64,000 nt of DNA from Rhodococcus sp. 14-2470-1b. Lineage in GTDB: Bacteria > Actinomycetota > Actinomycetes > Mycobacteriales > Mycobacteriaceae. The notes under the pieces were generated by a model that did not search any database, was not told where the DNA came from, and saw only the letters and a list, made by a program, of their open reading frames with translations. Below, piece after piece: positions 12,209 to 28,506 of this stretch. The translations under genes and the position numbers were made by a program. The stretch lies in NCBI RefSeq assembly GCF_002259415.1, contig NZ_NPFY01000013.1, positions 1-64,000 of the forward strand. Reading direction: 5' to 3'. Every line of letters starts with the position of its first letter. The stretch's first letter is position 1.

Positions 12209-12219
12209 GGCGGAGACCC

Positions 12220-13121: not shown

Positions 13122-13218
13122 GGTCGTTCCGCAGGCTGCACTCCTGCCCAGCCCCGGTCATTCCGCAGGCTCCACTCCTGCCCCTCCCCGGGTCATTCCG
13201 CAGGCTCCACTCCTGCCC
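13122..13218. repeat. Three direct copies of a 28-bp dispersed repeat
   Basis: Copies at 13122-13149, 13156-13183 and 13191-13218, each GGTCRTTCCGCAGG followed by CTSCACTCCTGCCC, with GCAGG/CCTGC arms that could form a short hairpin. Spacers are only 6-7 bp. It lies in the leader of wzm, just after the bpa stop. Confidence 0.85.
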
Positions 13219-13222
13219 CCCC

Positions 13223-13807
13223 TTACAGGTACTGGCCCGTTCCGCCGCCGGTGTGGCCTGGGCCACTGGGGTTGATGGCGACGCCGGGAGGCAGGGCGCC
13301 TTGGCGCATTTGTTCGAGTTGGGCGCGTGCTGCCATCTGCTGGGCGAACAGGGCGGTTTGAATTCCGTGGAACACCCCTTCCAACCAGCCGACCAGCTGG
13401 GCCTGCGCGATGCGCAGTTCGGCGTCCGACGGTATGGCGTCCTCGCCGAAGGGGAGGGCGAGACGTTCCAGTTCTTCGCGGAGTTCGGGGGCCAGGCCCT
13501 GTTCGAGTTCGCGGATCGAGGACTGGTGGATGCCTTTGAGTCGTGTGCGGCTGGCGTCGTCGAGGGGAGCTGCCCGCACCTCTTCGAGGAGCTGCTTGAT
13601 CATCGTGCCGATGCGCATGACCTTCGCCGGTTGCTCGACCATGTCCGACAAGGGCGTTTCGCCGTTCTCCACGTTGTCGGTGCCTGCGGCGCGGGCCGCG
13701 GCGGCGGTTGCCTCTTCCCGGCTGAGTGCGAGAGGCTGTCCGTCTGGACCGATCACGACGACGTGGTCGCCGGCTTCTGGATTCGAGTGCGAGTCCGAGT
13801 GCGTCAT
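13223..13807 (-). CDS. bpa: Bacterial proteasome activator Bpa
   Basis: ATP-independent ring that opens the 20S proteasome for unfolded substrates such as HspR in mycobacteria. The protein ends GTGQYL; a C-terminal GQYL that docks into the proteasome alpha ring is the hallmark of Bpa. The central four-helix bundle spans about residues 50-175 (MVEQPAKVMRIGTMIKQLL, LAPELREELERLALPF, AQLVGWLEGVFHGIQTALFA). 194 residues from ATG 13807, with GGAAGG 9 bases upstream; an ATG at 13816 is too close to that site. Neighbours match the Rv3780 context. Confidence 0.93.
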   Translation of the reverse strand: MTHSDSHSNPEAGDHVVVIGPDGQPLALSREEATAAAARAAGTDNVENGETPLSDMVEQPAKVMRIGTMIKQLLEEVRAAPLDDASRTRLKGIHQSSIRELEQGLAPELREELERLALPFGEDAIPSDAELRIAQAQLVGWLEGVFHGIQTALFAQQMAARAQLEQMRQGALPPGVAINPSGPGHTGGGTGQYL

Positions 13808-13973
13808 GTTCGCCATCCTTCCGGTTTCGGTGGGATTGCGCGATGAGCGGGGCCGATTATTGTTGTTTCGGGTCGTTGAGGAGGGAAGACAAGCGTGCAA
13901 GACAGCCAGGCGGTCGATCCGAAAAAGGGATGTGGAACACACGCTCACGAAATCGGCGCTTAGAGTGTCCGGC

Positions 13974-15179: not shown

Positions 15180-15235
15180 GTGGAAATGTGTCCTCGGGTC
15201 AGGGCCCAGGGCCCAGGGCCCACATTTCCACTCAC
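15176..15235. terminator. Bidirectional terminator-like palindrome with 15-bp perfect arms
   Basis: Arms GTGAGTGGAAATGTG (15176-15190) and its exact complement (15221-15235) enclose three copies of AGGGCCC. Both convergent genes stop inside the arms (TGA at 15177-15179 on the plus strand; TGA at 15234-15232 on the minus strand). Confidence 0.85.
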
Positions 15236-16203
15236 GAGACGCGGAGCAGGACCTTTCCGATCGCGTCGGCGTCGAGCAGTCGATGCCCCTCTGCCGCTTC
15301 GGTGATCGGTAGTTCGGCGTGAATGATCGGGGCGACGGCGCCTTCCTCGATCAGCGGCCACAACCGTGCAGTCATGTCTGCGACGATGTCCGCCTTGCTC
15401 GACGCTCCGGTTTCCGGTCGGCCACGCAGACCCGCGGCGTGAACGGTGCCGCGCTTGGCCAGGAGTGCACCGAAGTCGAGCTCACCCTTCAGTCCGCCCT
15501 GCATCCCGATGGTGATGAGCTTCCCGTCCTTGGCAAGCGCATTTACATTGCGCCCCAAGTACTTCGCGCCCATGTTGTCGAGGATGAGGTCGGCTCCGTC
15601 GGGTAGTTTCTCGACGAAGTCCTCGTTCTTGTAGTCGATGAGGATGTCCGCGCCGAGGGATGCGCAGAAGTCGAGCTTCTCGCGTGATCCGGCCGTCACG
15701 GCGACGGTGGCGCCGAATGCTTTGGCGACCTGGATCGCGTGCGTTCCGATGCCGCTTCCGCCTCCGTGGAGGAGAACCACATGACCGGAGCGGAGGCCGC
15801 CGAACATCACGAGATTGGACCAGACCGTCGACGCGACCTCTGGAAGTGCCGCTGCCGCATGGAGATCGAGCTTGCCGGGGATGGGAAACAGCTGGGTCGA
15901 CGGGACGGCGACCTGCTCTGCGTACCCGCCGCCGGCGAGGAGGGCGCAGACTTTGTCGCCGACCTTCCAGTCGTGCACTCCTTCACCGAGTTCGGAGATG
16001 ATCCCCGAGCATTCGAGCCCCAACGTGTCGCTCGCCCCGGGCGGTGGCGGGTAGAAGCCTTGACGCTGCATTAGGTCGGCGCGGTTGACCGCGGTGGCTG
16101 CGACGTCGACGATGACCTGCCCGCGCTCGGGACGTGGGTCCGCTACTTCGGTCCACTGCATCACGTCGGGAGCCCCGAACTCTTTCAGCGTTATCGCATG
16201 CAT
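15232..16203 (-). CDS. NAD(P)H-quinone oxidoreductase, zeta-crystallin/PIG3 type
   Basis: Medium-chain dehydrogenase/reductase, 323 residues, lacking zinc ligands. N-terminal GroES-like domain (AVNRADLMQRQGFYPPPPG, GLECSGIISELGEGV), then Rossmann domain with VLLHGGGSGIGTHAIQVAKAFGA split as GGGSGIGTHA, a nucleotide loop. It reduces quinones with NADPH in this family. Similar position to Rv3777. It is 9 bp downstream of the aldo-keto reductase and likely cotranscribed with it. Confidence 0.9.
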   Translation of the reverse strand: MHAITLKEFGAPDVMQWTEVADPRPERGQVIVDVAATAVNRADLMQRQGFYPPPPGASDTLGLECSGIISELGEGVHDWKVGDKVCALLAGGGYAEQVAVPSTQLFPIPGKLDLHAAAALPEVASTVWSNLVMFGGLRSGHVVLLHGGGSGIGTHAIQVAKAFGATVAVTAGSREKLDFCASLGADILIDYKNEDFVEKLPDGADLILDNMGAKYLGRNVNALAKDGKLITIGMQGGLKGELDFGALLAKRGTVHAAGLRGRPETGASSKADIVADMTARLWPLIEEGAVAPIIHAELPITEAAEGHRLLDADAIGKVLLRVS

Positions 16204-16212
16204 GCCTGCCCC

Positions 16213-17250
16213 TTACCCGATATCCCAGAGATTGATGCCGAAGTCCCGTGCGTGCTCGTCGATTCGGCTCAGTTCGTCGGCGGAGAAGTCGAGGTTCTCC
16301 AGTGCACCCACGTTGTTCTCGAGCTGCTCGACACTCGATGCTCCGATGAGTACCGATGTCACGCGAGGGTCGCGCAGGGCCCAGCTCAGCGCGAGTTGCG
16401 CGAGTGTCTGTCCACGTGAGGTAGCGATGTCGTTCAGTCCGCGGAGGTGGGCGACGTGTTCGTCGGTGAACCAGTCAGGGTTCAGCGACTTGCCCTGTGT
16501 TGCGCGTGAGCCGTCGGGAATCCCGTTCAGGTATTTGTCGGTCAGCATGCCTTGCGCGAGGGGAGAGAACGCGATGGTGCCTGCGCCGACCGAGGCGAGG
16601 GCGTCGAGCAACCCGTCCTCGATCCATCTGTTGACCATGGAGTACGACGGCTGGTGGATCAGCAGGGGCACACCGGCCGCGGACAGGAGTTCGGCCATCT
16701 TCGTCGTGTTCTCGGGCGTGTAGGAGCTGATCCCGACGTACAGAGCCTTGCCCTGATGCACGGCGCTGATCAACGCCCCTGCCGTCTCCTCGAGGGGTGT
16801 CTCGTGGTCGGGTCGGTGGCTGTAGAAGATGTCGACGTAGTCCAGGCCCATTCGATGCAGCGATTGGTCCAGCGACGACAGAAGGTACTTCCGCGACCCG
16901 CCGAAGCCGTACGGCCCCGGCCACATGTCCCACCCGGCCTTGCTGGAGATGACCAGTTCGTCGCGGTAGCCGGCGAAGTCCTCCCGCAGAATGCGTCCGA
17001 AGTTCTTCTCGGCACTGCCGTACGGCGGTCCGTAGTTGTTGGCGAGGTCGAAATGGGTTATCCCCAGGTCGAAGGCTCTGCGGAGCACTGCGCGCTGGGT
17101 CTGCAGCGGGGCATCGTCGCCGAAGTTGTGCCACAGGCCCAGCGAGATCGCGGGGAGCTTCAGGCCACTGGTGCCGGTTCGCCGATACTGCATCGAGTCG
17201 TAGCGATCTGCAGCCGCGACGTACGGGGGATCGATATGAGGTTCGGACAT
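16213..17250 (-). CDS. Aldo/keto reductase, YghZ/MgrA type
   Basis: 345 residues, TIM barrel. Catalytic tetrad visible: Asp in HFDLANNYG, Tyr in the same segment, Lys in ISSKAGW, His in YSHRPDHETP. NADPH-binding end: SVLIGASSVEQLENNV. Family members reduce methylglyoxal or L-glyceraldehyde-3-phosphate, protecting against toxic aldehydes. Divergent from a MarR regulator 116 bp away, which may control it. Confidence 0.92.
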   Translation of the reverse strand: MSEPHIDPPYVAAADRYDSMQYRRTGTSGLKLPAISLGLWHNFGDDAPLQTQRAVLRRAFDLGITHFDLANNYGPPYGSAEKNFGRILREDFAGYRDELVISSKAGWDMWPGPYGFGGSRKYLLSSLDQSLHRMGLDYVDIFYSHRPDHETPLEETAGALISAVHQGKALYVGISSYTPENTTKMAELLSAAGVPLLIHQPSYSMVNRWIEDGLLDALASVGAGTIAFSPLAQGMLTDKYLNGIPDGSRATQGKSLNPDWFTDEHVAHLRGLNDIATSRGQTLAQLALSWALRDPRVTSVLIGASSVEQLENNVGALENLDFSADELSRIDEHARDFGINLWDIG

Positions 17251-17366
17251 GCACCGAGCCTATTCCGACCGCCCGTAACGGACATCGAGCGGGAGCGTCG
17301 CCCAGGGAGTGACTGGAAAGGACCGCTGAGCTACTCATCGGTAGCTCTGGTGCCTAATATGGTCGG

Positions 17367-17864
17367 GTGACGGCCGAACGATCCTTTGGTCCAGGGGGGG
17401 ACCCGCAGTGGTTAGATGCTGCGGAAATGAGAGCGTGGCGCGCCTATATCGACGGCGGCCAACGATTGCAGGGGGTACTCAACAAAGATTTGCAGGACGC
17501 GCACAACCTGACGATGGCGGAATACCGCATCCTCGTGATGCTGTCGGAATCATCCGATGGCTCGCTGCGGATGAGCGACCTGGCCGACGGTGTGCTGTCG
17601 TCGAGGTCTCGCCTGACGCATCAGATCAGGCGCATGGAGTCCGACGGCATGGTCGAACGCAGCACGTGCGTCGACGACGGGCGGGGTGTCCTTGCCGTCA
17701 TCACTGCCATGGGTCGCCGCCGACTGGAGGAAGCGGCACCGACTCATGTCACCAGCGTCAGGAAGCATCTCGTCGATCTGTTGACGGCCCGTGAACTCGC
17801 GGTTCTCGGCGACATCTTCGAAAAGGTCGACGCAGCGATGGGGAGCCCGACGGGCCGGGGGTGA
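17367..17864 (+). CDS. MarR family transcriptional regulator
   Basis: 165 residues, GTG start. Winged helix: LTMAEYRILVMLSES, LRMSDLADGVLSSRSRLTHQ (recognition helix), MVERSTCVDDGRGVLAVIT (wing). It probably binds the divergent promoter shared with the aldo-keto reductase; the ligand is unknown. An unusual GGGGGGG run occurs near codon 11. Confidence 0.9.
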   Translation: MTAERSFGPGGDPQWLDAAEMRAWRAYIDGGQRLQGVLNKDLQDAHNLTMAEYRILVMLSESSDGSLRMSDLADGVLSSRSRLTHQIRRMESDGMVERSTCVDDGRGVLAVITAMGRRRLEEAAPTHVTSVRKHLVDLLTARELAVLGDIFEKVDAAMGSPTGRG

Positions 17865-17916
17865 TTGGCCCCTGACCGGCAGAACCGTTTAGGATCGTCT
17901 TTCGTCGGTAGACGAT

Positions 17917-18003
17917 GGAAGCGTGGCAGAGCGGCCCAATGCACTCGCCTTGAAAGCGAGAGACGTCCAAAAGCGTCCGGGGGTTCAAATCCCTCCGCTT
18001 CCG
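17917..18003 (+). tRNA. tRNA-Ser (TGA)
   Basis: Acceptor arm GGAAGCG/CGCTTCC with discriminator G, anticodon loop CTTGAAA between CTCGC-type arms (anticodon TGA), long variable arm, T loop GGTTCAAATCC. CCA not encoded. Its 3' end is the integration site of the element that follows. Confidence 0.97.
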
Positions 18004-18006
18004 CAG
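17983..18006 (+). other. attL core
   Basis: Overlaps the T arm and acceptor stem of tRNA-Ser; identical over 24 bp to 28483-28506. Confidence 0.92.
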
Positions 18007-18015
18007 TGTGAAGAG

Positions 18016-18053
18016 GCCCTGATCTTGCACTCCGGTGCAGGTCAGGGCTTTTT
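18016..18053 (+). terminator. Rho-independent terminator for tRNA-Ser supplied by the element
   Basis: GCCCTGA (18016-18022) pairs with TCAGGGC (18042-18048), with inner arms GCAC/GTGC, followed by TTTTT. The int stop codon (18044-18042) lies in its 3' arm. Confidence 0.85.
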
Positions 18054-19184
18054 CTCTGCCGAGATGACGACGACCGGCGAACCGTCTGGCCACACTTTGG
18101 CCACACTCTTCGCCGAAACTGCACGATCGAGCGCGTCCGCGACGGCGTCCAGATCGTCGTCGAACAGGTCGGCGTAGACATCGAGTGTCATCGCGGCCGA
18201 CGCGTGCCCGAGCATCCGTTGTAGCGCCTTCACGTTTACCCCGGCGCTGATCGCCAGGGACGCCGCAGTGTGCCGCAGATCGTGCGGAGTGAGCCGAGGT
18301 ACTCCGGACTTCTCGACGGCACGCGTGAACCATCCCGTGGACGACACGGACCGTCTGAGGTACTCGCCACCTCGGCCGGCGAACACCAAATCGTCGCGAC
18401 CCTTGCTCTCGCACGCTCGCGCGAGCTCGTCGACGAGAAAGGCCGGCACCGGAACCGCGCGCGACTTGTGCGATTTCGGAGTGCCGACGTGGATCTGCTG
18501 TTGCACCTGCACGGCGTTGTCGACGACGTTGAGGCGCTTCCGGAGCAGATCGAGATGACGCACGCGTAGCCCGATCGCCTCGCCCCAGCGCACACCGCAG
18601 TACGCAAGCAGGAGGACGAGCACCCGATGCTGACCGGACGCTGACGCCAGCTCGGCGACCTCGGCGTGCGAGAGGTACACGTGCGTCTTGCGCTGCTTCC
18701 GTGGCAGGTTCTCGACGCCGCGCGCTGGGTTCTTCGCGAGACGCTTCGCCTTCACGGCCGAATCGAGGACACCGGCCAGCACACCGTAGGCGCGGATGAC
18801 GACCGTCGCGCCCTTGCCTGCACGCGTCATGTCGGCGATCCACCGCTCGACCGAATCGAGCGTGATGTCTGCGAGCTGGACGCGTCCCCAGCGCGGCATC
18901 ACGTGAATGCGCCACGCGGTCTCGATCGACTTGTAAGCCGAAGGTTTGAGGTCGGACTCCTTGCGCTGCAACCAATCTGGGCCAAACTCTGCGACGGTGA
19001 TCTTCCCCAGTTTCGGCGGCACGTACTGGCCCGTCATCATCTCGACCTCGACTGTGGCCGCGAAGTCTTGCGCTAGTCGCCTAGACGTGAAGCCGCGCTT
19101 CTGGGTCTGGCGTCGTTCGGGCGTGCGGTAGCGGACCCGCCAGCGCTTACCGGCCGCAGTCTCGTAGCTCTCGATGGTTGCCAT
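18042..19184 (-). CDS. int: Tyrosine-type integrase
   Basis: Site-specific recombinase, 380 residues, that inserts and (with Xis) excises the element at tRNA-Ser. N-terminal arm-binding domain (1-60), SAM-like core-binding domain (60-160), catalytic domain with Arg in YCGVRWGEAIGLR, Lys in TPKSHKSRAV, HDLRHTAAS (His-x-x-Arg), LGHASAAMTLDVYAD (His and nucleophile Tyr). Its ATG overlaps the repressor stop (TGATG), so the two are coupled. The 3' end of the gene contains two arm-type sites. Confidence 0.96.
   Translation of the reverse strand: MATIESYETAAGKRWRVRYRTPERRQTQKRGFTSRRLAQDFAATVEVEMMTGQYVPPKLGKITVAEFGPDWLQRKESDLKPSAYKSIETAWRIHVMPRWGRVQLADITLDSVERWIADMTRAGKGATVVIRAYGVLAGVLDSAVKAKRLAKNPARGVENLPRKQRKTHVYLSHAEVAELASASGQHRVLVLLLAYCGVRWGEAIGLRVRHLDLLRKRLNVVDNAVQVQQQIHVGTPKSHKSRAVPVPAFLVDELARACESKGRDDLVFAGRGGEYLRRSVSSTGWFTRAVEKSGVPRLTPHDLRHTAASLAISAGVNVKALQRMLGHASAAMTLDVYADLFDDDLDAVADALDRAVSAKSVAKVWPDGSPVVVISAEKKP
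18087..18106. other. Left arm-type integrase sites
   Basis: TGGCCACAC twice, at 18087-18095 and 18098-18106 (11-bp step), inside the int 3' end. The same motif recurs at 28368-28397 beside attR. Confidence 0.75.
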
Positions 19185-19723
19185 CAGTCATCCTCGTCGT
19201 TGTCGCGAATCAAGTCGCCGTAGCCAACCGACACGATCAAGTCGACCGTCTCGCCGTCCGATTGAGTGCGTCGGGCAATCCGTAGGGGCTCACCGGCAGG
19301 TGCGGGGCGCGCAGAATCGACGGATTGACGGTGGCTCATGAAGGGCGGTTGCGACCGAACGACGAAGTCGAGCGATTGCTCGGTGAGTGAACGCATTCCG
19401 TCGAGGAAGTGCCACGCCGAACGAGTCGAAACTCGTTCTGCCCCAGTTATATTCACGTAACGCTCGCCGTCGTAATGCGCGGGCATGAGCAGGGTGTTGG
19501 GGGAGACATCGAGGGCGATCGAGAACGCCAGCAAGTCGTCCACGTCCACTCGGCGCGCTCCTGTTTCCACCTGACTGATAGAAGAGTTGCTGATCGGCCG
19601 ACCCACCTGCGTGAGCCGCTCGGAGAGCGCCCTGAGTGTCAGGTTCCGCTCACGTCTCACTCGCGCGATGTTCTCGCGCACGGTTTCGCCTGTAGGTCCA
19701 AGGACGATCTTACTTGCTGCCAT
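19184..19723 (-). CDS. XRE/Cro-type repressor
   Basis: 179 residues. N-terminal helix-turn-helix: ENIARVRRERNLTLRALSER, then SNSSISQVETGARRVDVDDL as recognition helix; the remainder may be a dimerisation domain. No LexA/CI protease motif is visible. Divergent from the excisionase operon, with direct TATCCAA motifs in the gap; it likely represses both promoters and keeps the element dormant. Confidence 0.88.
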   Translation of the reverse strand: MAASKIVLGPTGETVRENIARVRRERNLTLRALSERLTQVGRPISNSSISQVETGARRVDVDDLLAFSIALDVSPNTLLMPAHYDGERYVNITGAERVSTRSAWHFLDGMRSLTEQSLDFVVRSQPPFMSHRQSVDSARPAPAGEPLRIARRTQSDGETVDLIVSVGYGDLIRDNDEDD

Positions 19724-19823
19724 TATCCAAACTTATATCCAACCTTGCCAGCATGGAAGCGGTGGTGTACGAATGAAGACAACCCAAACAAGATTGGGAT
19801 AATCCAAGCAAAGGAAAGAGAAG
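19724..19823. promoter_or_regulatory. Divergent control region with candidate repressor sites
   Basis: TATCCAA at 19724-19730 and 19736-19742 (12-bp step) and the near-palindrome TTGGGATAATCCAA at 19794-19807. The first overlaps the repressor leader, the last lies just before the excisionase ribosome site. Sequence is AT-rich relative to the surroundings. Confidence 0.6.
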
Positions 19824-20030
19824 ATGCCAGCTTCCCCTCTTGCAACCGCCGACGAGGCAGCCGAGTTCCTACGCACCACGAAGCAGAAGCTCGCGGAGAG
19901 TCGATACCGCGGCACAGGCCCGAGGTTCGTCAAGCACGGGCGTCGCGTGCTCTACCGCTGGGCCGATCTGACCGCATACGTCGAGGCCAACACGTTCCAG
20001 CGCACCGATGACCGGCCAGTGAGCGCCTGA
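19824..20030 (+). CDS. xis: Excisionase-like helix-turn-helix protein
   Basis: 68 residues, MerR-like HTH_17 fold: LATADEAAEFLRTTKQKLAE, then RGTGPRFVKHGRRVLYRWAD, a typical AlpA/Xis pattern. A strong AAGGAAAGAG precedes the ATG. Such proteins bend DNA to favour excision or activate integrase genes. First gene of the rightward operon; its stop overlaps the next ATG. Confidence 0.88.
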   Translation: MPASPLATADEAAEFLRTTKQKLAESRYRGTGPRFVKHGRRVLYRWADLTAYVEANTFQRTDDRPVSA

Positions 20031-20410
20031 TGCACTACCCCGATCCCTACGAAAACGCCCCCGATGCCGGGCATGGCACCGAGGGCAACGAACCAGCCAA
20101 CGACCAGGAAGGCGATTCAGACATGAGCATAAACCCTGCCACCGTCAACGTCGACAAAGCACTGCGCGCTCTCGGGCTCACTCCCGATCAATGGGACGGC
20201 ATCACGTCCGACTTGCGTGCCTACCGAACAACGTCCGTCATCGAGAACCCGAGCGTGCTGGTCACGGTCACCGAATACTCCGACGGCTCCGAGGAGGTGG
20301 ACGTGTACGTCGAGGACCGGGAGCCCGAGGATGGCAACTGGGCGAATCGTCTGCGCGCACTCGCGAAGGACGCCGAGGCTGCAGCCGATCTGGTGGAGGG
20401 ACTCCAGTGA
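20030..20410 (+). CDS. Hypothetical element protein, 126 aa
   Basis: Acidic protein. No family recognised. N-terminal half is disordered-looking (DAGHGTEGNEPANDQEGDSD); the C-terminal half has a beta-rich segment (VLVTVTEYSDGSEEVDVYVE) and a closing helix. The start codon overlaps the xis stop (ATG within TGATG); an ATG at 20123 (MSINPATVN) is an alternative. Ends in GTGA overlap with the recombinase. Confidence 0.65.
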   Translation: MHYPDPYENAPDAGHGTEGNEPANDQEGDSDMSINPATVNVDKALRALGLTPDQWDGITSDLRAYRTTSVIENPSVLVTVTEYSDGSEEVDVYVEDREPEDGNWANRLRALAKDAEAAADLVEGLQ

Positions 20411-21294
20411 ACCTCCAACTCGTCACCGCCGACAGCGACTCGACCCTGCCGAGTAGGGAAGAGCTGCTCGAGAAGCACTTGCGCATGCTGAAGCGACGCA
20501 ATGCCTCACCGCACACCATCGAGTCCCGCAAGGGCGCACTGACACGCCTGGCTGAATGGCTCGGCGACACTCACCTTCTCCTGGTGACGCTGACCATTCT
20601 CGAAGATTGGCAGGACAGTCTCAACGTGTCCGCGTCCGCGATCGGCACCTACACCGTGCACGTCCGGAGCTTCTACAAGTGGGCCGAGCAGCAAGGACTC
20701 GTCACCGTCGACCCGGCGCGGCACATGGTGGTCCCGAAGATCGGTCGGCGCATGTCGCGACCGATCACCGAGCCCGATCTGAAAGACGCCTTGCTCGCAT
20801 CGAGGTACGACCAGACCCTCCACTGCATCCTCCTGCTTGCCGCGTACTGCGGGCTGAGGGCAGCGGAGGTGGCCGCGTGTACCGTCGAGGACTTCCGGCG
20901 CGGTGACTCCACTGGCGGAGCGTTCCTGACTGTCCACGGGAAAGGTTCGAAGGATCGAGTGGTGCGGGTTCCAGTGCCGATCATGGCCGAACTCGACGTC
21001 CTGAATCGGCGCACCGGGCCGATGTTCATGAATGGGGTCGGCAAACCCATCACCGCAGATCAGGTGTCGCACTGGGCATCGAGATTCTTCCAGGGTCTCG
21101 GCATGACGTACACACTCCACAAGCTCCGACACCGCTTCGCGAACAGGCTCGCTGACCTCGGCACCGACGTACGCGACATTCAGGCGTCCCTTGGGCACGA
21201 GAGCCTCAGCACCACAACACTTTATCTCGCCGCGAACAGTCGCCGAGCTGCAGACTCGATCGACAAACTCGCTGACGACATGGACGGTGCGTGA
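20407..21294 (+). CDS. Second tyrosine recombinase, XerC/D-like
   Basis: 295 residues from GTG 20407 (GTGA overlap with the previous stop). N-terminal core-binding domain (TIESRKGALTRLAEWL), catalytic domain with Arg in AAYCGLRAAEVA, Lys in HGKGSKDRVV, HKLRHRFANRL, LGHESLSTTTLYLA. All catalytic residues are present. It lacks the arm-binding domain of the first integrase and resembles phage- or plasmid-borne Xer proteins. It may resolve multimers of the excised, replicating circle, or carry out a second recombination. Confidence 0.93.
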   Translation: MNLQLVTADSDSTLPSREELLEKHLRMLKRRNASPHTIESRKGALTRLAEWLGDTHLLLVTLTILEDWQDSLNVSASAIGTYTVHVRSFYKWAEQQGLVTVDPARHMVVPKIGRRMSRPITEPDLKDALLASRYDQTLHCILLLAAYCGLRAAEVAACTVEDFRRGDSTGGAFLTVHGKGSKDRVVRVPVPIMAELDVLNRRTGPMFMNGVGKPITADQVSHWASRFFQGLGMTYTLHKLRHRFANRLADLGTDVRDIQASLGHESLSTTTLYLAANSRRAADSIDKLADDMDGA

Positions 21295-21467
21295 TGTTCG
21301 CGACCATCGACGAGCTGTCCGACGAGCCGGTCACCGTAACCCTCGAAGGTGAGCGTGTGCGGATTCGGTATGGCCGGGGCGCGACGTTGTCGCTGGACAT
21401 CAGCGAAGCGGTAGACCTGGTGGACGCTGTTGCGACGGTGCTCGGTGAGGTAGCCGAGAAGCAATGA
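21294..21467 (+). CDS. Small hypothetical protein, 57 aa
   Basis: Reads MFATIDELSDEPVTVTLEG at the start and ends GEVAEKQ. Overlaps both neighbours (TGATG with the recombinase stop, ATGA with the next start), so it is probably translated. Short beta strands followed by one helix. Function unknown. Confidence 0.65.
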   Translation: MFATIDELSDEPVTVTLEGERVRIRYGRGATLSLDISEAVDLVDAVATVLGEVAEKQ

Positions 21468-21949
21468 CCAGGGAGTCACCACCACCATTCCGATTCGAGT
21501 GGGAGAGCTGCGTCAAGCGCACTCGAATGCCTGGCAGCGCCAAGTTCCTCGCGCTCACCCTCGCTACGTTCGGCTCGTCGAAGACAGGGAAGAACATTCA
21601 CCCGAGTGTGGCGAGGCTTGCGCGAGAAATGGAAGTCACCGAGCGGACCGTGATGCGTGGAATGAAGTGGCTCCGAGACAACGGCTGGATCGTGCGAGAG
21701 AAGCAGGGCAACAGGTGGCGCAGTCACGCTGACGAGTACCGACTGAACGTCCCCGAGAACGTCCTCGATGTGATGTGGCTGGACCCGTACAGCCATCCAT
21801 ATTCGAGCGTTCCACCTGACACCAGTGTCACTCAGACTTCGGAAGTCCAACTGACACTGGTGTCACCTGGACAAGGCAGCGCATCGAATGTCCAGGTGAC
21901 ATCTGAGCAATGTCTAGGTGACATCTCCGCAAGTCCAGGTGACAAATGA
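21464..21949 (+). CDS. Winged-helix protein, candidate replication initiator
   Basis: 161 residues. Central helix-turn-helix HPSVARLAREMEVTERTVMR, then GMKWLRDNGWIVREKQGNRW, a winged helix as in phage and plasmid replication proteins. The C-terminal 50 residues are low-complexity and are encoded by DNA full of iterons (21810-21977). An initiator with its binding sites inside its own gene is the arrangement of lambda O and many plasmid Rep genes. It could alternatively be a transcription regulator. Confidence 0.75.
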   Translation: MTRESPPPFRFEWESCVKRTRMPGSAKFLALTLATFGSSKTGKNIHPSVARLAREMEVTERTVMRGMKWLRDNGWIVREKQGNRWRSHADEYRLNVPENVLDVMWLDPYSHPYSSVPPDTSVTQTSEVQLTLVSPGQGSASNVQVTSEQCLGDISASPGDK

Positions 21950-21977
21950 GCCGGGTCCACCTGACACCAGTGTCACC
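21810..21977. repeat. Iteron cluster, candidate replication origin
   Basis: Core GTCCAGGTGACA at 21890, GTCTAGGTGACA at 21912 and GTCCAGGTGACA at 21933, then GTCCACCTGACACC at 21955: steps of 22, 21 and 22 bp, two helical turns. Two more inverted or paired sites lie upstream (21810-21831; 21845-21872), and each pair contains a palindrome of type TGACAC-N2-GTGTCA, as does the last site (21961-21974). Confidence 0.8.
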
Positions 21978-22088
21978 CCATCCCGTAGGTAACCCTGGAA
22001 ATGGACCCCGTAAAGAAGATCCCGTGTGGTTGCGTCAATCAGCCACCTCACTTCCGGGCCCGCTGCAACGGCGAAAGGAAGCACTCGA

Positions 22089-22262
22089 ATGTTGGATCGA
22101 ACCGGAGACCAAATCGACGCGCCCGAGGCGCCTCGGTGGCACGACCCGCGATGCCGCAACGGCTGGCTCGGTGATGACCTCGACGGTCGTCCAGTCCCGT
22201 GCCTGCAGTGTCGGCCGCACCTGCGCCAGACAGCCGACGTCAACGACTGCAGCAGGCGGTAG
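22089..22262 (+). CDS. Small zinc-ribbon-like protein, 57 aa
   Basis: ATG 22089 follows AAAGGAAG by 8 bases. It contains HDPRCRNGWLGDDLDGRP followed by VPCLQCRPH, giving a Cys-x14-Cys-x2-Cys set with flanking His, likely to bind zinc. Very similar short proteins occur in actinobacterial phages and plasmids. Another reading in a different frame (from 21946) lacks any ribosome site or pattern. Confidence 0.65.
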   Translation: MLDRTGDQIDAPEAPRWHDPRCRNGWLGDDLDGRPVPCLQCRPHLRQTADVNDCSRR

Positions 22263-22336
22263 GGCGTCGGCATCGCTGGAGCCTCCTCACCCCAGACGAC
22301 CTCCGTGGCAGGTTTGAAAATCTCACCGAGGCTCAG

Positions 22337-22418
22337 TGTCCACATGTGCGCGTCCGCATGTGGACACATGACCAGCCTTGACCTGCGGAATGCCACATTG
22401 TGGCCCTGTACATGTACA
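22337..22418. promoter_or_regulatory. Cluster of three palindromes before the structural module
   Basis: TGTCCACATG/CATGTGGACA arms (22337-22346 and 22357-22366, 10-nt loop), CCACATTGTGG (22393-22403) and the perfect TGTACATGTACA (22407-22418). They lie 25-105 bp before the next gene and are candidates for a late-gene operator. Confidence 0.55.
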
Positions 22419-22443
22419 ACCACTCGAACAGAGGAGCGAACAC

Positions 22444-22698
22444 ATGACCGAACACCGAGCAGTGAGACCCATCGACCGATCGAGGGCCGCACGAGCCGTA
22501 CTCGCGTTCCTGACCAACGACCTCGGCCAGCTCAACCGATCGCTGATGGAGGCGAACGAAGCTCACGAGGTCGATCTGCTGATCGCCGCGCTCGCCGAGG
22601 GCCTGGGCGAGACGCTCGTGCAGTCGATCGGTGAGGACGCCACCCGGCAGTTGATGGATCGCGTCATTCTCGGCGAGCAGATCGGATTCCAGCCGTGA
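22444..22698 (+). CDS. Hypothetical element protein, 84 aa
   Basis: Start chosen at ATG 22444 after AGGAG. All-helical prediction: RSRAARAVLAFLTNDLGQLN, then HEVDLLIAALAEGLGETLVQ. No family recognised. GTGA overlap with the next gene indicates coupling. Confidence 0.6.
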   Translation: MTEHRAVRPIDRSRAARAVLAFLTNDLGQLNRSLMEANEAHEVDLLIAALAEGLGETLVQSIGEDATRQLMDRVILGEQIGFQP

Positions 22699-22853
22699 GC
22701 GACGAACCGGAGATCGACGAGCCGGACGAGCCCGCTGTTCCCATGAAGTCGGTCCCGATCACTCGCGAGCGGGGCTGGCCTCCGGAGCGCCCGCAGATGG
22801 TCGAAGTGCCGGCCGAAAACGCCGACGATTGGGACGAGCGGATCTGGCACTGA
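22695..22853 (+). CDS. Small acidic hypothetical protein, 52 aa
   Basis: GTG start overlapping the previous stop. Begins MSDEPEIDEPDEPAVPMK and ends DDWDERIWH. Very acidic; no known family. The 247 bp that follow, before the capsid gene, hold no convincing gene. Confidence 0.55.
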   Translation: MSDEPEIDEPDEPAVPMKSVPITRERGWPPERPQMVEVPAENADDWDERIWH

Positions 22854-23100
22854 AAGTTCGGGTATGGTCGCTTTCGAAGTCGAGACAAGTGACGAGGAGC
22901 CCTAGCGGGCCAAGTCATCGAGGATCGAGACTCACGAAGAAGCGCAAGGTTCGACCAGCGGTCAAGTGTGATCCGCGCCGAGGTTCCCTTCGGGTTCAAG
23001 GCAGCTGAGATCCGCGTCAACCCGTCCGTCACCGTGGCTTCCGACCTCCCCTACTTTCGTGGTGCCTCGACGCACCCTCACCATGCCTCGGAGGCATCCC

Positions 23101-24306
23101 ATGTACCGAATCAAGCAGCTTCAGGACTCTGCGACCAGCGCCATCAAGAGGGCCCGCGACATCGCCGAAAAGGCCACGGCCGAGGACCGAGACATGGACT
23201 CGGATGAGCGCAAGCAGTTCGACATCGAGATGGCCGCGGGCCGCGAGCTGCTGGAAAAGCTCAAGGCCGCGAAGGCGGACCAGCTCGTGGTCGACGAGGC
23301 CGAGTCTCTCGCGAAGGCGGTCGGCGGCGCACCCGGCACCGACGACCACACCGGAGCATCGAAGTTCCTCGGCATCGCAGGCACATCGGTGAAGAGTCTC
23401 GCCCGCAGTATCGCTGGAACCATGCTCCGCGAGGAGAACGGCCGCAAGGCGGTCGCGCCTGCAGGCACCAGCCTGACCGCGATTCCTCTCCTGCCACAGA
23501 GCCCGATCGAGCTACCGCGCGCTCTGCAGACGTTCCTCGAAGTCATCCCGAGCGGCGTCGAGTCCTCGCCGTCGTGGAAATACCTCAAGCAAACGGTGCG
23601 GACGAACAACGCCGCACCTGTCGCCGTGGGCGCAACCAAGCCGACCTCGGTGTACACCTGGGACTCGGCAAACGCCGCACTGCACGTCATCGCGCACATG
23701 TCCGAGCCGATCGACAAGTACCTGCTCGAAGACGTGAACGCGCTGTCGGCGTGGATCGAGAACGAGCTGCTCTTCGGACTGCGTATCGCGGTCGAGAACC
23801 AGGTGCTCAACGGTGATGGGCAACTGCTCTCAGGCAGCACGACCGACCGTGCAATATTGGGCCTGAACAGCACCTCAGGTGTGCAGTCGCAGGCCTTCGC
23901 CTCGAACCTGCTGACGACGGCGCGGCGGGCCATCACCAAGCTCGAAGTGATCGGTAAGTCGCCCTCGGTGTTCGTGCTCTCACCCACCGACTGGGAGGCC
24001 CTGGAACTGACCGCAGCGACCGACGACGCGGTCGACTACCGCGGCCTGCCGGTGGACCGTGCAGCGCAGAAGCTCTGGGGCGTCCCGGTGTCACTCTCGA
24101 CGGCGCTCGCCGCGAAGGCCGGTGTCCTGCTCGACACGTCGACGCTCCGGGTCGTCACCGACACGCAGGGCGTCGAGGTGAAGTGGTCGGAGAACTACGC
24201 CGACGACTTCGCCAAGAACCAGCTCCGCGCTCGTTGCGAGGGTCGGTTCGAGCTGGAGGTTCAGCAGCCGCTCGGCACGGTCAAGATCGCTACTCAGGCG
24301 CCGTAA
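23101..24306 (+). CDS. HK97-type major capsid protein
   Basis: 401 residues, start after GGAGG (23090-23094). Residues 1-90 are helical and charged (the scaffold or delta domain: DMDSDERKQFDIEMAAGREL). The HK97 core follows: HMSEPIDKYLLEDVNALSAW (spine helix lead), NELLFGLRIAVENQVLNGDG, TDRAILGLNSTSGV, PSVFVLSPTDWEAL, KLWGVPVSLS. Forms icosahedral shells in phages and satellites. No separate head protease gene is seen, so the delta domain might be removed by a helper protease or not at all. Confidence 0.93.
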   Translation: MYRIKQLQDSATSAIKRARDIAEKATAEDRDMDSDERKQFDIEMAAGRELLEKLKAAKADQLVVDEAESLAKAVGGAPGTDDHTGASKFLGIAGTSVKSLARSIAGTMLREENGRKAVAPAGTSLTAIPLLPQSPIELPRALQTFLEVIPSGVESSPSWKYLKQTVRTNNAAPVAVGATKPTSVYTWDSANAALHVIAHMSEPIDKYLLEDVNALSAWIENELLFGLRIAVENQVLNGDGQLLSGSTTDRAILGLNSTSGVQSQAFASNLLTTARRAITKLEVIGKSPSVFVLSPTDWEALELTAATDDAVDYRGLPVDRAAQKLWGVPVSLSTALAAKAGVLLDTSTLRVVTDTQGVEVKWSENYADDFAKNQLRARCEGRFELEVQQPLGTVKIATQAP

Positions 24307-24313
24307 TCCTCGA

Positions 24314-24401
24314 CAGCCCCAGCTGGTCGCCTCCTCGGGCACTGGGGCTGCCGACCCTTGACTCACTCCGGCTCGTCCCAGCAGCCGAGCCGGAGTGAGT
24401 C
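24314..24401 (+). terminator. Two consecutive hairpins between capsid and tape-measure genes
   Basis: First: CAGCCCCAG (24314-24322) with CTGGGGCTG (24342-24350). Second: a perfect 16-bp stem GACTCACTCCGGCTCG (24360-24375) with its complement at 24386-24401, 10-nt loop. No T-run follows, so this may attenuate or stabilise mRNA ends rather than fully terminate. Confidence 0.7.
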
Positions 24402-24450
24402 ACCCCCCCACTTTCAGGGTCCGCTGCGAACGCTCGCTGAAAGGGCAACA

Positions 24451-27400
24451 GTGGCAACCGAACTCGCTGTCGCGTATGTGTCGATCGTTCCAGAGACCTC
24501 GCGGCTCGTTCCCGAGTTCAACCGTCAGGTTGGACCGGGTCTCGAGCGCTCCGGACGCGAGCAAGGCCAGCGCTACGGCAATGCCTTCTCGGGCGCTGCG
24601 GGCAAGCTCATCGGTGCTGCTTCGGGGCTCGTCGCGGGCGCGGCCATCGTCGCGTTCGCGAACGAGTCGATCAAGTCGCTACAGCGGATCGAGCGGATCA
24701 ACACTCAGACCGAGACCGTCATTCGCTCGACGGGCAACGCGGCAAAGGTCTCTGCCGAAGAGGTCGAGGGGCTTGCTGGCGAACTCGAGAATCTGACGGC
24801 GACCGAGGCCGAGACGATCCAGCAGGGCGCGAACTTCCTGTTGACGTTCAAGAACATCCGCAACGAAGTCGGCGACGGCAACGACATCTTCAACCAGACG
24901 GTCGGCGTCATGACCGACCTGTCTCGGGCCACCGGCACCGACATGAAGGCCGCATCGCTGCAGCTCGGTAAGGCCCTCAACGATCCGATCAAGGGCATCT
25001 CGGCTCTTGCCCGCGTCGGCATCACGTTCTCGGCCGAGCAGAAGAAGCAGATCGAAGGCTTCGTCGAGACGAACGACATCCTGTCGGCTCAGAAGATCGT
25101 TCTCGGCGAGCTGGAGTCTCAGTTCGGTGGATCTGCGGAGGCGTACGCGCAGACCACCGAGGGCAAGATCGAGCTGGCCAAGCACGCCCTCGGTACCTTC
25201 GGTGAGGCCGTCACGGCGCAGGTGTTGCCTCCGCTGGCTGCTATCGGCACTGCAACCGCTGCCGCGTTCAACGGACTCGCTGAGCACTCGGACGAGGTTC
25301 TGCTGATCGCCGGGGCGTTCGTGGCGTGGAAGTTCATCCCGCCCCTGATGGCCCAGATGAGCAGCAGCGTCGGCTCTGCTGCAGCGCGAGTGGGTGCGTT
25401 CAATACCGCGACGACGTACATGCGGACCGCAGCAGGCCGCTCGCAGGCCGACGTCGGCCGTCTGACTGCCACCATGCAGGTCCTCGGCCAGCAGGGCGGC
25501 AACATCGGCCGCATCGGAACGGCGTTCACCAACGCGTCGACTCAGGCGTCTCGCTTCGCGACGACGGCCGGTCTTGCGGCGGCGTCAGGTCGCGCCATGC
25601 AGATCGCTGGCAGCGGCATCGTGGGCGCTCTCGGTGGCCCGTTCGGCATCGCTGTCCTCGCTGCCGGTGCGGCGCTGTTCTTCTGGGTCAAGAAGAATCA
25701 GGAGGCGAAGGCTGCAGCCGAGGCGAACGAGGCTGCGATACAAGCAATTTCCGACACTCTGGATGCGCAAACCGGAGCGGTCACTCAGAACACGATCGCG
25801 GCCCAGGCGAAGATCCTCGCCGACAACAGGATGATCGACAGCGCGAAGAACTACGGCATCGCAGCGGCCGATCTCGTCAACGCACACCTCGACGACGCCG
25901 ACGCTCTCGCGAAGGTCAACCCGGTCATCGAGGAGAACATACGGAAGTCGACCGAGGCGTCGAACGTCTACAAATCGAACGCGGAAACCTATGCAGCAGC
26001 GGGAGTTTCGCTCGATGACTTGACTGCAGCATTAGGCGGCAACAGCGACAAATACAGCGAAGTCGAAGGCAAGATCGACTCGTACAACACGCGAATGTCG
26101 GCGGCGGGCGCGAACGAGACGGAGAAGGCGGCGTCCCTCGATCGACTGAAGACGAGCCTCGATCAGGCGGGCATCGGCGCCATCGATCTCGGCGAGTCGG
26201 TTACGACGACGAACGGTCAGCTCGCCGATAGTCGTCAGGTCACCGAGGACGCGGCTGCAGCCCAGACGAAGGGCGCGGAAACAGCGAACGCGTTCACCGA
26301 GGCGATGGACAAGTACAACGATTCCGCGGCCACCGCCGAGGATCGAACGTCAGCGCTCAAGGCCGCACTCGACGCTCTCAACGGAAACCCGCTCGATCTC
26401 GAGGAAGCGAACGCCTCGCTCAACGAGGCTTTCGACAGCACGGCCGAGGCGGTCAAGCCGAAGGAAGGCGAAGCGGCACCCACCGTCAATCTGGACACCA
26501 ACACCATCGACGTCGCCACCGAGGCGGGCCGACGACTGCTCGACGTGACCGTAGCTCAGCGAGACGCCACGCTCGACGCCGCGCGGGCAGCGAGAGACGC
26601 AGCAGTCGCGAACGGTGACCTGGAGGGCTCACAGGCCGCGGCAACGGCAGTTGTCGAACAGTCGAGGCAGAAGTTCGTCGAGCAGATCGGCACTCTCGGC
26701 ATCGTCGGAGACGAAGCGCAGCGTCTCGCCGACAAGTACATCGGGATCCCCAGCGTCGTCTCGACGCTCATCGAGGCACCGGGCGATGTCGAGACTCAGC
26801 TCGCGATGGACATCCTGAAGAACAAGGTCGACCTTGTTCCGGACGACAAGTCGATCACCGTCGACACCCTCGACGAGGAGGCGAAGAAGCGACTCGAAGC
26901 GCTGGGCGTGAAGGTGCGCGATCTACCTGACGGCAATGTCGAGGTCTACGCCGACACGACGGCCGGACAGACCGTCATCGATCAACTGATCAACACACCG
27001 CGCAAGATGACGGTGACGATCGATACCGTCCGAACGGCGCAGGCAGAGCGAGACTTCCGGGCACTCGGCGGCGACATGCCGATGCAGGGTCCGGTCGCTC
27101 CGGTCTTCAACGCGAACGGCAACCTGCTCGAATTCTTCGCTGGCGGTGGGCTTTCGCCCATGTCCAGCCGAAGGGCTCAGGTCGTGCCACCGAATACGTG
27201 GCGCGTCGTCGGCGACCGACCGGTCAACGATGAGTTCTTCATCCCCGACACCGACCAACCTCAGCACGTCAGTATCGGTGCGGAGTGGGCTCGGCGCCGC
27301 GGACTGATCCTCGTCGACCCGAACCAGCCAGTGCGCGCTTTCGCGGACGGAGGAATCCAGAACGCCATCGAGGCAGGACGGGGCGTCACCGGCAACCGCT

Positions 27401-28359
27401 ACCTCTGGGGCGGAACAGGCCCGACGAACTTCGACTGCTCGGGATTCGTCGGATGGCTGCAACAGATCGCGATGGGCATCGTCGGATCGACCAAGCGCCC
27501 CTATACGACCTACTCGCTCATTGCTGGATCGTTGGCCGGTCTCGAACCGGGCCTCGGACCTGCGGGCACTCTGTTCCAGGTCGGCGTCTCCGACGAGCAC
27601 ATGGCAGCGACTCTCGAAGGGCACAACGCCGAGTCGGGAGGGTCGCTCGGCGCGTCCGCCATCGACAGCGGGGCAGCAGGAGCTGCAGACAGCCAATTCC
27701 CGTACAAGTTCCACCTGCCGAACGCTCTGCTCAATCCACAGCCCACACCACCGGCAGCGCCAGTCGAGGCCACCGACCCGGCGACGACAGCACTCGACTC
27801 GACGATTACGGACAGCACCACGACGTCGAGCACGATCCCCGAGACCGCAGCGGCGACCCAGCCCGAGCTGTTCTCCGTCAGCGACCGACTCAAGAAACTC
27901 GGCTCGGATCTCAGCAGCGTTGCCGTCGATGCGATGCTCGAACAGATCCCGTTCGGCCTCGGCGAGTCCCGCTTCCTGACGACACCGCTCATCCCGGCCG
28001 CTCCGGACGCCTTCCCGAAGGAAGACATCGCTAACCAGCTCCCAGTGACCCCGGGGCATGGCAACTGGCTGGAGGACTGGGTCAAGGCACTACGTCGACC
28101 CGCGAGCATCCCAGTGTTCGATCAGGGCGGCGTCGTGGCACCCGGCATCAACCTCATCAACAACAAGACCGGCGCCCACGAAGCCCTGGCGAACGTCACC
28201 GGGTTGCTCGAAGCCATGCCAGCCGAAGGCATCGGAGGGTCAGGACCGGACTTCTCGATCAACAACGTGACGATCACCGGCCACGACACCAGAGAGGTCA
28301 TGCGCCAGATGAACGCGCTACAGACTCGGCAGATGATGCGCTACGGCGGCAAGCCGTGA
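24451..28359 (+). CDS. Tape-measure protein with NlpC/P60-type motif
   Basis: 1302 residues from GTG 24451 (AAGGG upstream); the reading VATELAVAYVSIVPETSR matches the usual start of actinophage tape measures. Residues 20-280 form the TP901-like region with a small hydrophobic segment (LVAGAAIVAFANESIKSLQR); hydrophobic stretches near 280-430 could cross the membrane (IAVLAAGAALFFWV). Long helical mid-region. Near residue 990 comes YLWGGTGPTNFDCSGFVGWL with the Cys of NlpC/P60 peptidases, and His candidates follow near 1051-1057. Tape measures set tail length and help DNA entry; the peptidase would open cell wall. Confidence 0.92.
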   Translation: MATELAVAYVSIVPETSRLVPEFNRQVGPGLERSGREQGQRYGNAFSGAAGKLIGAASGLVAGAAIVAFANESIKSLQRIERINTQTETVIRSTGNAAKVSAEEVEGLAGELENLTATEAETIQQGANFLLTFKNIRNEVGDGNDIFNQTVGVMTDLSRATGTDMKAASLQLGKALNDPIKGISALARVGITFSAEQKKQIEGFVETNDILSAQKIVLGELESQFGGSAEAYAQTTEGKIELAKHALGTFGEAVTAQVLPPLAAIGTATAAAFNGLAEHSDEVLLIAGAFVAWKFIPPLMAQMSSSVGSAAARVGAFNTATTYMRTAAGRSQADVGRLTATMQVLGQQGGNIGRIGTAFTNASTQASRFATTAGLAAASGRAMQIAGSGIVGALGGPFGIAVLAAGAALFFWVKKNQEAKAAAEANEAAIQAISDTLDAQTGAVTQNTIAAQAKILADNRMIDSAKNYGIAAADLVNAHLDDADALAKVNPVIEENIRKSTEASNVYKSNAETYAAAGVSLDDLTAALGGNSDKYSEVEGKIDSYNTRMSAAGANETEKAASLDRLKTSLDQAGIGAIDLGESVTTTNGQLADSRQVTEDAAAAQTKGAETANAFTEAMDKYNDSAATAEDRTSALKAALDALNGNPLDLEEANASLNEAFDSTAEAVKPKEGEAAPTVNLDTNTIDVATEAGRRLLDVTVAQRDATLDAARAARDAAVANGDLEGSQAAATAVVEQSRQKFVEQIGTLGIVGDEAQRLADKYIGIPSVVSTLIEAPGDVETQLAMDILKNKVDLVPDDKSITVDTLDEEAKKRLEALGVKVRDLPDGNVEVYADTTAGQTVIDQLINTPRKMTVTIDTVRTAQAERDFRALGGDMPMQGPVAPVFNANGNLLEFFAGGGLSPMSSRRAQVVPPNTWRVVGDRPVNDEFFIPDTDQPQHVSIGAEWARRRGLILVDPNQPVRAFADGGIQNAIEAGRGVTGNRYLWGGTGPTNFDCSGFVGWLQQIAMGIVGSTKRPYTTYSLIAGSLAGLEPGLGPAGTLFQVGVSDEHMAATLEGHNAESGGSLGASAIDSGAAGAADSQFPYKFHLPNALLNPQPTPPAAPVEATDPATTALDSTITDSTTTSSTIPETAAATQPELFSVSDRLKKLGSDLSSVAVDAMLEQIPFGLGESRFLTTPLIPAAPDAFPKEDIANQLPVTPGHGNWLEDWVKALRRPASIPVFDQGGVVAPGINLINNKTGAHEALANVTGLLEAMPAEGIGGSGPDFSINNVTITGHDTREVMRQMNALQTRQMMRYGGKP

Positions 28360-28367
28360 AACTCGTC

Positions 28368-28397
28368 TGGCCACAATTTGGCCACACATGGCCACGA
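28368..28397. other. Right arm-type integrase sites
   Basis: TGGCCACAA (28368), TGGCCACAC (28379) and TGGCCACGA (28389), steps 11 and 10 bp. Same motif and spacing as in the int 3' end. Confidence 0.75.
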
Positions 28398-28482
28398 TTA
28401 AGGTCGATTCAGGTGGGTTGTACGAGGCGTCAAATGCCTGGTGGGACCGGGTAAAGCGCATCGACCAGCAGGGCGCAGAAGA

Positions 28483-28506
28483 GTTCAAATCCCTCCGCTT
28501 CCGCAG
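28483..28506 (+). other. attR core
   Basis: 24-bp copy of the tRNA-Ser 3' end, identical to 17983-18006. Confidence 0.92.

Follow-up and report, generated by a model that had tools for sequence, protein, structure and literature searches.

The 64,000-nucleotide stretch of Rhodococcus sp. 14-2470-1b DNA analysed here (hereafter the window; the genome it comes from measures 5.9 Mb) carries a 10.5-kb element that sits in a tRNA-Ser(TGA) gene between 24-bp direct repeats, and which we consider to be probably an integrated, capsid-encoding actinobacterial satellite of tailed phages whose virions would be chimeric, with head and tail ruler (the tape measure protein, TMP) of its own making. The sequence features that point to this reading are gene content, open frames, recurrence, selection, the capsid lineage, a DNA segment shared by satellites and prophages in Streptomyces, and one matched pair of TMPs. 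An earlier note on this DNA had described a tRNA-Ser element with a 24-bp repeat and intact integrase, repressor, excisionase, capsid and TMP genes, all of which are borne out by family matches and by frames that run uninterrupted by stops; its designation of the element as a candidate phage satellite gains support from a diverged sister element and from the lack of a full prophage among the resolved elements with the same integrase. The note had made no mention of a second tyrosine recombinase, a replication-initiator-like gene with associated repeats, and small genes that the sister element shares. The principal features are the following, given in window coordinates (below, G handles denote genomes and L handles capsid or TMP loci; aa, amino acids; HTH, helix-turn-helix; ORF, open reading frame; att, attachment):

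17917-18004, plus strand: tRNA-Ser(TGA), the integration target (ARAGORN)
17983-18006, plus strand: attL core, 24-bp direct repeat GTTCAAATCCCTCCGCTTCCGCAG, whose start is formed by the last 22 tRNA bases
18042-19184, minus strand: tyrosine integrase, 380 aa (PF00589, E 8.9e-24; phrog_1), 89% identical in G032 and G034
19184-19723, minus strand: HTH repressor-like protein, 179 aa (PF01381, phrog_11503)
19824-20030, plus strand: excisionase-like HTH_17 protein, 68 aa (PF12728; phrog_66, E 3e-4)
20030-20410, plus strand: small protein of 126 aa (orf126), alike over 32-46 aa in same-integrase elements
20407-21294, plus strand: second tyrosine recombinase, 295 aa, Xer-like (PF00589, E 3.2e-18; best NCBIfam model TIGR02224 XerC, below cut-off)
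21291-21467, plus strand: protein of 58 aa (orf58), 88% identical in the G032 sister element
21464-21949, plus strand: replication-initiator-like winged HTH protein, 161 aa (phrog_270, E 3e-12; PF13730)
22378-22698, plus strand: protein of 106 aa (orf106), likely start 22444, with relatives upstream of the capsid gene in L074, L117, L118 and L119
23101-24306, plus strand: HK97-fold major capsid protein, 401 aa (ORF from 23059, likely start 23101; PF05065, E 1.2e-23; TIGR01554 above cut-off)
24451-28359, plus strand: TMP, 1302 aa from a GTG start, with an NlpC/P60-like patch (frame open from 24358; phrog_10780, E 3.5e-73)
28483-28506, plus strand: attR core, second copy of the 24-bp repeat GTTCAAATCCCTCCGCTTCCGCAG

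The TMP gene ends 123 bp short of the right repeat. Searches of ten predicted element proteins against both Pfam and PHROGs, and of three small ones against Pfam, gave no match to terminase, portal, protease, connector or tail tube families. The earlier statement that the element lacks terminase, portal, protease, tail tube and lysis genes holds as regards packaging, connector and tail tube families and a separate lysis gene, with the qualification that the TMP itself matches two PHROGs labelled endolysin (phrog_971, E 1.6e-15, and phrog_6707), as do several other TMPs surveyed; its NlpC/P60 match lies just under the Pfam cut-off (22.7 vs 23 bits). An encapsulin-like shell was considered for the capsid protein and rejected, the NF041188 match reaching only 24.7 bits against a cut-off of 180. 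An empty attachment site was sought in a near relative, but none was found: in the nearest, G004, the stretch examined holds no tRNA gene and the joined flanks match on the right side only.

Recurrence within the genus was surveyed in 37 genomes, that of the window included, eight of which contain a capsid match at E <= 1e-3. The genome of Rhodococcus sp. H36-A4 (G032; locus L074) carries the whole set of integrase, repressor, excisionase, second recombinase, replication protein, capsid and TMP genes in identical order and at the same tRNA, so that the set the earlier note proposed to look for at tRNA-Ser genes of other Rhodococcus does recur, in diverged form. Aligned identities between the two elements are 89% for the integrase, 87% for the excisionase, 82% for the replication protein, 78% for orf106, 77% for the capsid, 70% for the second recombinase and 69% for the repressor, with orf126 alignable over only 32 aa. 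The corresponding ratios of nonsynonymous to synonymous substitution (dN/dS; Nei-Gojobori method, own script, repressor saturated) are 0.09 for the integrase, 0.25 for the second recombinase, 0.10 for orf58, 0.23 for the replication protein, 0.11 for orf106 and 0.20 for the capsid. The sister TMP, of 1425 aa, is 80% identical to that of the window over the last 335 aligned residues (dN/dS 0.18) and only 30% identical over the first 475, a divergence that renders the N-terminal dN/dS of 0.61 uninformative. By these sequence measures the sister frames are diverged and under purifying selection.

Three further members of the genus carry a related integrase at tRNA-Ser together with other capsids (38-39% identical) and other content in the post-capsid position: in G034 a Fic protein with a match to the SoFic defence model (PADLOC, E 1.5e-84) (integrase 89%; L075:8226-9449), a Gp37-like tail protein in G024 (integrase 90%), and nothing beyond the capsid, with which the element finishes, in G018 (integrase 58%, tRNA-Ser CGA). 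Related integrases were also found in G001, G008 and G023, in stretches seen in part and not delimited at both ends. A full prophage at this site, which the earlier note had named as the observation that would reveal a one-off deletion, occurs in none of the four same-integrase elements resolved at both ends (G032, G034, G024 and G018), all of which are small. As a separate observation, G006 holds an 18-kb element (L083, G006:C24:240000-259900, approximately 821-19152) in tRNA-Ser(CGA); its integrase, a related one, is divided between two frames, and it carries a lone 1609-aa TMP (6351-11180). The genome has no capsid relative, and no other tail gene emerged when nine phages and the satellite proteins were used as BLAST references.

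To place the capsid in a wider context, relatives were collected from 301 genomes of the family (30 at E <= 1e-40), 394 genomes of the class (15 at E <= 1e-30), GTDB contigs (72 loci) and IMG/VR (4 loci), yielding 120 loci, or 107 once 13 near-duplicates had been collapsed at a capsid identity of 98%; five loci that are fragments (L160, L206, L203, L213 and L113) were excluded from the tree and from the counts that follow. In a quick IQ-TREE phylogeny of 108 rows (the loci, the window and five reference phage capsids), which has SH-aLRT support and several long branches, 79 actinobacterial capsid rows including the window form one side of a branch with a support of 98, and the other side holds the five phage capsids, 21 phage-type loci, L202, L198 and L243. 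The phage-type loci had been set aside by hand for a portal, terminase or protease beside the capsid (protease only in L242, L200, L212 and L188), whereas L119, with a separate protease, and L122 and L124, with a portal, were kept as satellite-type, in agreement with the tree. Two-round profile searches of all frames found a terminase large subunit in 0 and a major tail protein in 0 of the 79 loci, which include several short contigs (less than 1.5 kb past the capsid in L077, L170 and L211). Other matches among them comprise a portal in two (L122 and L124, again the only Pfam portal hits at the capsid loci of satellite genomes with G handles), a protease in 12 (11 of them capsid-fused) and an adaptor in one (L217). 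The phage-type loci gave a terminase in 15 and a portal in 17 of 21, a control that is partly circular because the set was chosen partly by such gene matches. Tyrosine recombinase matches lie within 10 kb of the capsid in 60 of 78 loci (the window not counted), and a copy of the tRNA 3' end was found beyond the element in 21 of the 33 capsid loci tested, giving sizes of approximately 7-11 kb; the element of L152 measures 15.8 kb.

Several members of this collection are of interest in their own right. A prohead protease is fused in frame to the capsid in 11 satellite-type loci (L116, L121, L122, L124, L127, L128, L144, L147, L150, L151 and L214), and the alphaproteobacterial L202 (Qipengyuania nanhaisediminis), on the phage side of the tree, combines an integrase and a capsid with no portal or terminase detected. 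The 'plasmid unnamed1' of Rhodococcus pyridinivorans Y6 (L252, NZ_CP096036.1) is recorded as a 13.6-kb circle made of a head-to-tail dimer of a 6.8-kb recombinase-capsid unit, whose copies are 99.8% identical, with one capsid copy split; it points to a possible circular, episomal state of such elements, and the dimer itself may be an assembly effect.

In 7 of the 79 loci the first long frame to follow the capsid on its strand encodes a TMP, starting 11-774 nt downstream: the window, L074, L130 (G268), L152 (Streptomyces marokkonensis), L155 (S. coeruleorubidus), L208 (Mycolicibacterium peregrinum, with 47-bp att repeats) and L217 (IMG/VR). Besides the two Rhodococcus elements they include Mycolicibacterium, Streptomyces and a further genome of the window's family. 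All seven match tape-measure PHROGs, and in two Streptomyces elements the TMP gene follows the capsid gene on the same strand after only 11 and 13 nt, whereas in phage-type loci with a matched TMP the distance from the capsid is 3.3-4.7 kb, except in L188 (0.95 kb). The TMP occurs at five separate places within the 79-row side of the tree; with L243 included, which lies on the phage side, carries its TMP at +904 from the capsid, is joined to L242 by long branches and falls outside the seven, the label requires six changes, and 8 of 500 shuffles give a number as low. Separate gains are favoured because the TMPs resemble different phage types. In the window itself the nearest phages also differ between the two genes, Moosehead and Basilisk for the capsid and BetterKatz, Ewald and Sleepyhead for the TMP, and the TMPs of the window, G032 and L130 (1302, 1425 and 778 aa) are all shorter than their best-matching phage TMPs (1448-1837 aa). 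Furthermore, a Gp37-like protein (PF14594, phrog_110), which by gene position would belong to the tail tip, occupies the post-capsid slot in 2 of the 79 loci (L076 and L214). We entertain, as a tentative proposal that we hold to be less probable than its contrary, a dedicated actinobacterial lineage of satellites of approximately 7-16 kb, usually without terminase or portal, that would control both virion ends, and with them head size and tail length, through their own capsid and a helper TMP or Gp37-like protein captured several times independently and often trimmed. Two further observations concern these loci: L217 has two TMP genes on opposite strands (5519-8362 and 12621-14729), one of them behind the satellite-type capsid, and a small connector- or minor-tail-like protein lies near the capsid in L208 (8949-9377) and L243 (11478-11801), matched by PHROGs in the former and recognized by eye in the latter.

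Streptomyces genomes provide pairs of a satellite and a resident prophage. In S. coeruleorubidus a prophage that has genes for terminase, portal, capsid and tail lies approximately 64-80 kb from the satellite L155, and the two share a 94-bp segment (85% identical) that is found between the HNH (PF01844) and terS (PF05119) genes of the prophage and overlaps only unsupported frames in L155; the same segment is shared by L163 and its own resident prophage (83 bp, 82%). We take the HNH-terS junction to be the expected position of cos in such phages and, because of this location, read the shared segment as a candidate packaging site. When 19 regions upstream of prophage terminases were compared with the satellites, matches below 1e-15, among those listed, comprised 2 of 21 same-genome pairs vs 2 of 302 different-genome pairs, the latter both involving L173 (with prophages L270 and L276) and in part reflecting a match of the L173 HNH region; below 1e-6 the listed matches comprised 5 of 21 vs 7 of 302, some of them falling outside the segment (L151 at -2051, L078, L131 and L153). 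A profile of the segment also finds L168, L196, L152, L117, L169, the plasmid pWTY27 and the prophage L237; an HNH gene adjoins the segment in the TMP-bearing L152, and in the Streptomyces satellite L166 a TerS gene (PF05119, 8756-9238) directly follows it. The small Streptomyces plasmid pWTY27 (L251, NC_013667.2), which has traA/traB, itself encodes a satellite-type capsid (10642-12102) and carries the cos-like segment at 10322-10405. The L155 pair also links the tail rulers: the satellite TMP (1109 aa) and the prophage TMP (1592 aa) are 71% identical over the first 51 aa, 37% in the middle and 71% over the last 190 aa, and by this alignment the former is a collinear, shortened version of the latter with both ends kept. 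A position weight matrix built from eight Streptomycetaceae sites reaches 12 bits or more in 12 of 68 other satellites on the capsid strand vs 1 of 68 on the opposite strand, a difference that narrows at lower cut-offs (17 vs 5 at 10 bits, 31 vs 23 at 8 bits). The same matrix scores 14.1 bits in G032, and in the window it marks one site:

22259-22276, plus strand: cos-like half-site, 14.3 bits at 22259, which could instead be a promoter

We propose the following sequence of events. The satellite would integrate in tRNA-Ser, where its repressor would keep it silent until a siphophage helper infects or is induced, upon which it would probably leave the chromosome and use its own initiator to replicate. 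It would then supply its own capsid protein and its own TMP, leaving portal, protease, terminase, tail tube, tail tip and lysis to the helper; the satellite capsid would be assembled on the helper portal and matured by the helper protease, and satellite DNA would be packaged by the helper terminase from a helper-type cos-like site. The resulting particle would be a chimera of a satellite head and a helper tail whose polymerisation follows the satellite ruler, through which the satellite may set both particle size and tail length during helper infection.

A number of observations weigh against this proposal. No helper is known for the window element, and the whole window genome gave no PF03354 terminase or PF04860 portal match, other terminase families not having been searched; as PF03354 was found in only 7 of 12 phage-type control genomes (PF04860 in 11), its negative is weak evidence for terminase absence. 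The window arrangement was found in just two elements among the 37 genus genomes, and 70 of the 79 loci show neither TMP nor Gp37-like protein, so a TMP is not needed by this kind of element. Support on the tree consists only of SH-aLRT values, and counts of changes cannot separate gain from loss. As for the individual loci, L155 lacks a convincing att repeat, L217 is not delimited by repeats and also carries an adaptor-like gene, and shorter TMPs fail as a rule, the TMP of L208 (1061 aa) being about as long as those of Phrann (1033) and Xeno (1046). The shared Streptomyces segment could instead be a late promoter, L155 and the prophage of its genome also share DNA in the capsid and TMP genes, and the profile match of L121 lies on the strand opposite the capsid. 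In the window the site is a half-site only, equalled under the full profile by 7 of 200 shuffles (3 of 200 for G032), and blastn of 21900-23100 against phages returned four records at E 0.03. Finally, the window element gave no tail assembly chaperone match in Pfam or PHROGs, unlike the Vibrio elements discussed below. For a cos site in the window, neither the opening 140 bases of eight reference phages nor a scan with a loose motif yielded anything useful.

Part of this evidence could also be accommodated by an interference element, in which capsid and TMP would serve as immunity cargo, defective components that spoil virion assembly by invading phages, instead of forming particles of the element's own. 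That the post-capsid slot can be a cargo slot is indicated by the SoFic-matching Fic protein found there in L075, no capsid relative was found in the G006 genome, whose tRNA-Ser element carries a lone TMP, and tail assembly is described in PMC11364771 as a target of satellite and prophage immunity. We nevertheless regard this explanation as unlikely in view of the tandem, one-strand arrangement of capsid and TMP at 11 and 13 nt in two Streptomyces elements, the cos-like segment and HNH/TerS genes, which point to packaging, and the retention of both prophage TMP ends in L155. More doubtful still is that the TMP is kept for entry rather than for length, its peptidoglycan-hydrolase patch and membrane segments helping satellite DNA into hosts or past entry blocks that halt the helper. 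In its favour, an NlpC/P60-like patch with a DCSG cysteine and a following histidine is present in the window and in L074 (below the Pfam cut-off in the window), it is the C-terminal 335 aligned residues that are 80% conserved vs 30% in the first 475, the L155 TMP has an SLT transglycosylase domain, and the same slot can be occupied by Gp37-like proteins of the presumed tail tip; however, such a patch says little because phage TMPs of the group carry them too, as members of phrog_971, and no entry block is known here. The alternative given in the earlier note, loss of the middle genes from a prophage, here taken to be drifting, is very improbable, and a one-off deletion or decayed prophage was rejected: the capsid and TMP families are indeed phage families, and phage modules are mosaic anyway, but a diverged sister keeps the same frames open with dN/dS well below 1, the capsid lineage is separate from those of the sampled phages, capsid and TMP have different phages as their closest matches (a weak point by itself), and the same layout recurs at five places on the tree.

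The remaining features of the window element lie between the replication-initiator-like gene and the TMP:

21811-21976: iteron-like direct and inverted repeats (TCCACCTGACACCAGTGTCAC / AGGTGACA), a candidate origin within and past the 3' end of the replication-initiator-like gene
22026-22262, plus strand: protein of 78 aa with Cys motifs C..GWLG...C..C.PHL, similar by eye to ORFs in L074, L076 and L077
22695-22853, plus strand: acidic protein of 52 aa with the C-terminal sequence WDERIWH
24310-24445, plus strand: hairpins between capsid and TMP, a candidate attenuator (folding of 24300-24460: z -4.7, 0 of 200 shuffles as stable)

The repeats have counterparts in G032, where the sister element has two copies of TGACACCAGTGTCA and one of AGGTGACA, and, together with the Xer-like second recombinase, suggest plasmid-like replication with dimer resolution. 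The 78-aa protein has no match in Pfam or PADLOC. A WDxRxW-type end is found directly upstream of the capsid in 5 of the 79 loci, from Rhodococcus and Streptomyces (the window, L074, L155, L163 and L166), and is absent from the 19 phage-type records scanned, and the hairpins could lower TMP expression relative to that of the capsid.

In the proposed satellite role, the window element invites comparison with several known systems. In layout, it presumably resembles phiRv1 and phiRv2, which the earlier note had named for their size and make-up. These two are among published Mycobacterium candidate phage-inducible chromosomal islands (PICIs), elements with an integrase and a major capsid gene (mSystems 2023, PMC10654092) for which, according to the same paper, mobilisation by a helper was not demonstrated. 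As that paper defines candidate PICIs, the window element falls among them, with an integrase and a capsid inside att repeats, and it shares with them the tRNA sites used by tyrosine integrases and a satellite-like character; some of them carry terminase or scaffold genes, whereas the window element has a TMP after the capsid and no packaging gene that we found, and the term 'tape measure' is absent from the paper's main text. Capsid-forming PICIs (cf-PICIs), to which the earlier note had likened the element, encode capsid, portal, protease, connectors and terminases (PMC10690885), and some carry putative tmp genes (PMC12987554, Extended Data Fig. 10 legend). That likeness stands as regards the element's own capsid and ends there, since no portal, protease, connector or terminase was matched in the window element. 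The Streptomyces satellites MulchRoom and MiniFlayer are likewise actinobacterial and have their own capsid genes and small capsids; they differ in encoding terminase, portal and scaffold, and 'tape measure' occurs 0 times in the text that describes them (PMC10690885).

Searches that use tail genes as a prophage marker would miss satellites of this kind. In the titles and abstracts searched, a coverage outside which subscription papers mostly fall, there were no satellites with capsid and TMP in Actinomycetota. The pairing of the two genes would provide natural replicates of how a satellite ruler wins over that of the helper, and in S. coeruleorubidus one genome harbours both the satellite and a helper candidate.

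At the tail, the closest parallel is provided by the Vibrio PICI-like elements (PLEs): the TMP and hub protein of PLE11 replace those of the helper, giving chimeric tails approximately 10 nm shorter, and deletion of tmp cuts transduction by about 99.9% in PLE11, 96% in PLE1 and 99% in PLE4 (Nature 2026, PMC12987554). Like PLEs, the window element encodes a TMP (24451-28359), and where PLE11 encodes a baseplate hub protein, two relatives of the window element encode a Gp37-like tail protein. As described in that paper, PLE11 virions use the helper capsid protein, and PLEs encode a tail assembly chaperone. PLE hosts and helpers are unrelated to those considered here, and the window element itself gave neither a chaperone nor a hub match beside its TMP, the Gp37-like protein being confined to other elements. 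The first demonstration of chimeric tails made by a satellite dates from 2026 and concerns a single Vibrio family; if our reading is true, tail takeover would be convergent and extend across Actinomycetota. With satellite TMPs already known from Vibrio PLEs, and integrase-capsid elements from candidate PICIs, the window element would by analogy be PLE-like at the tail and cf-PICI-like at the head.

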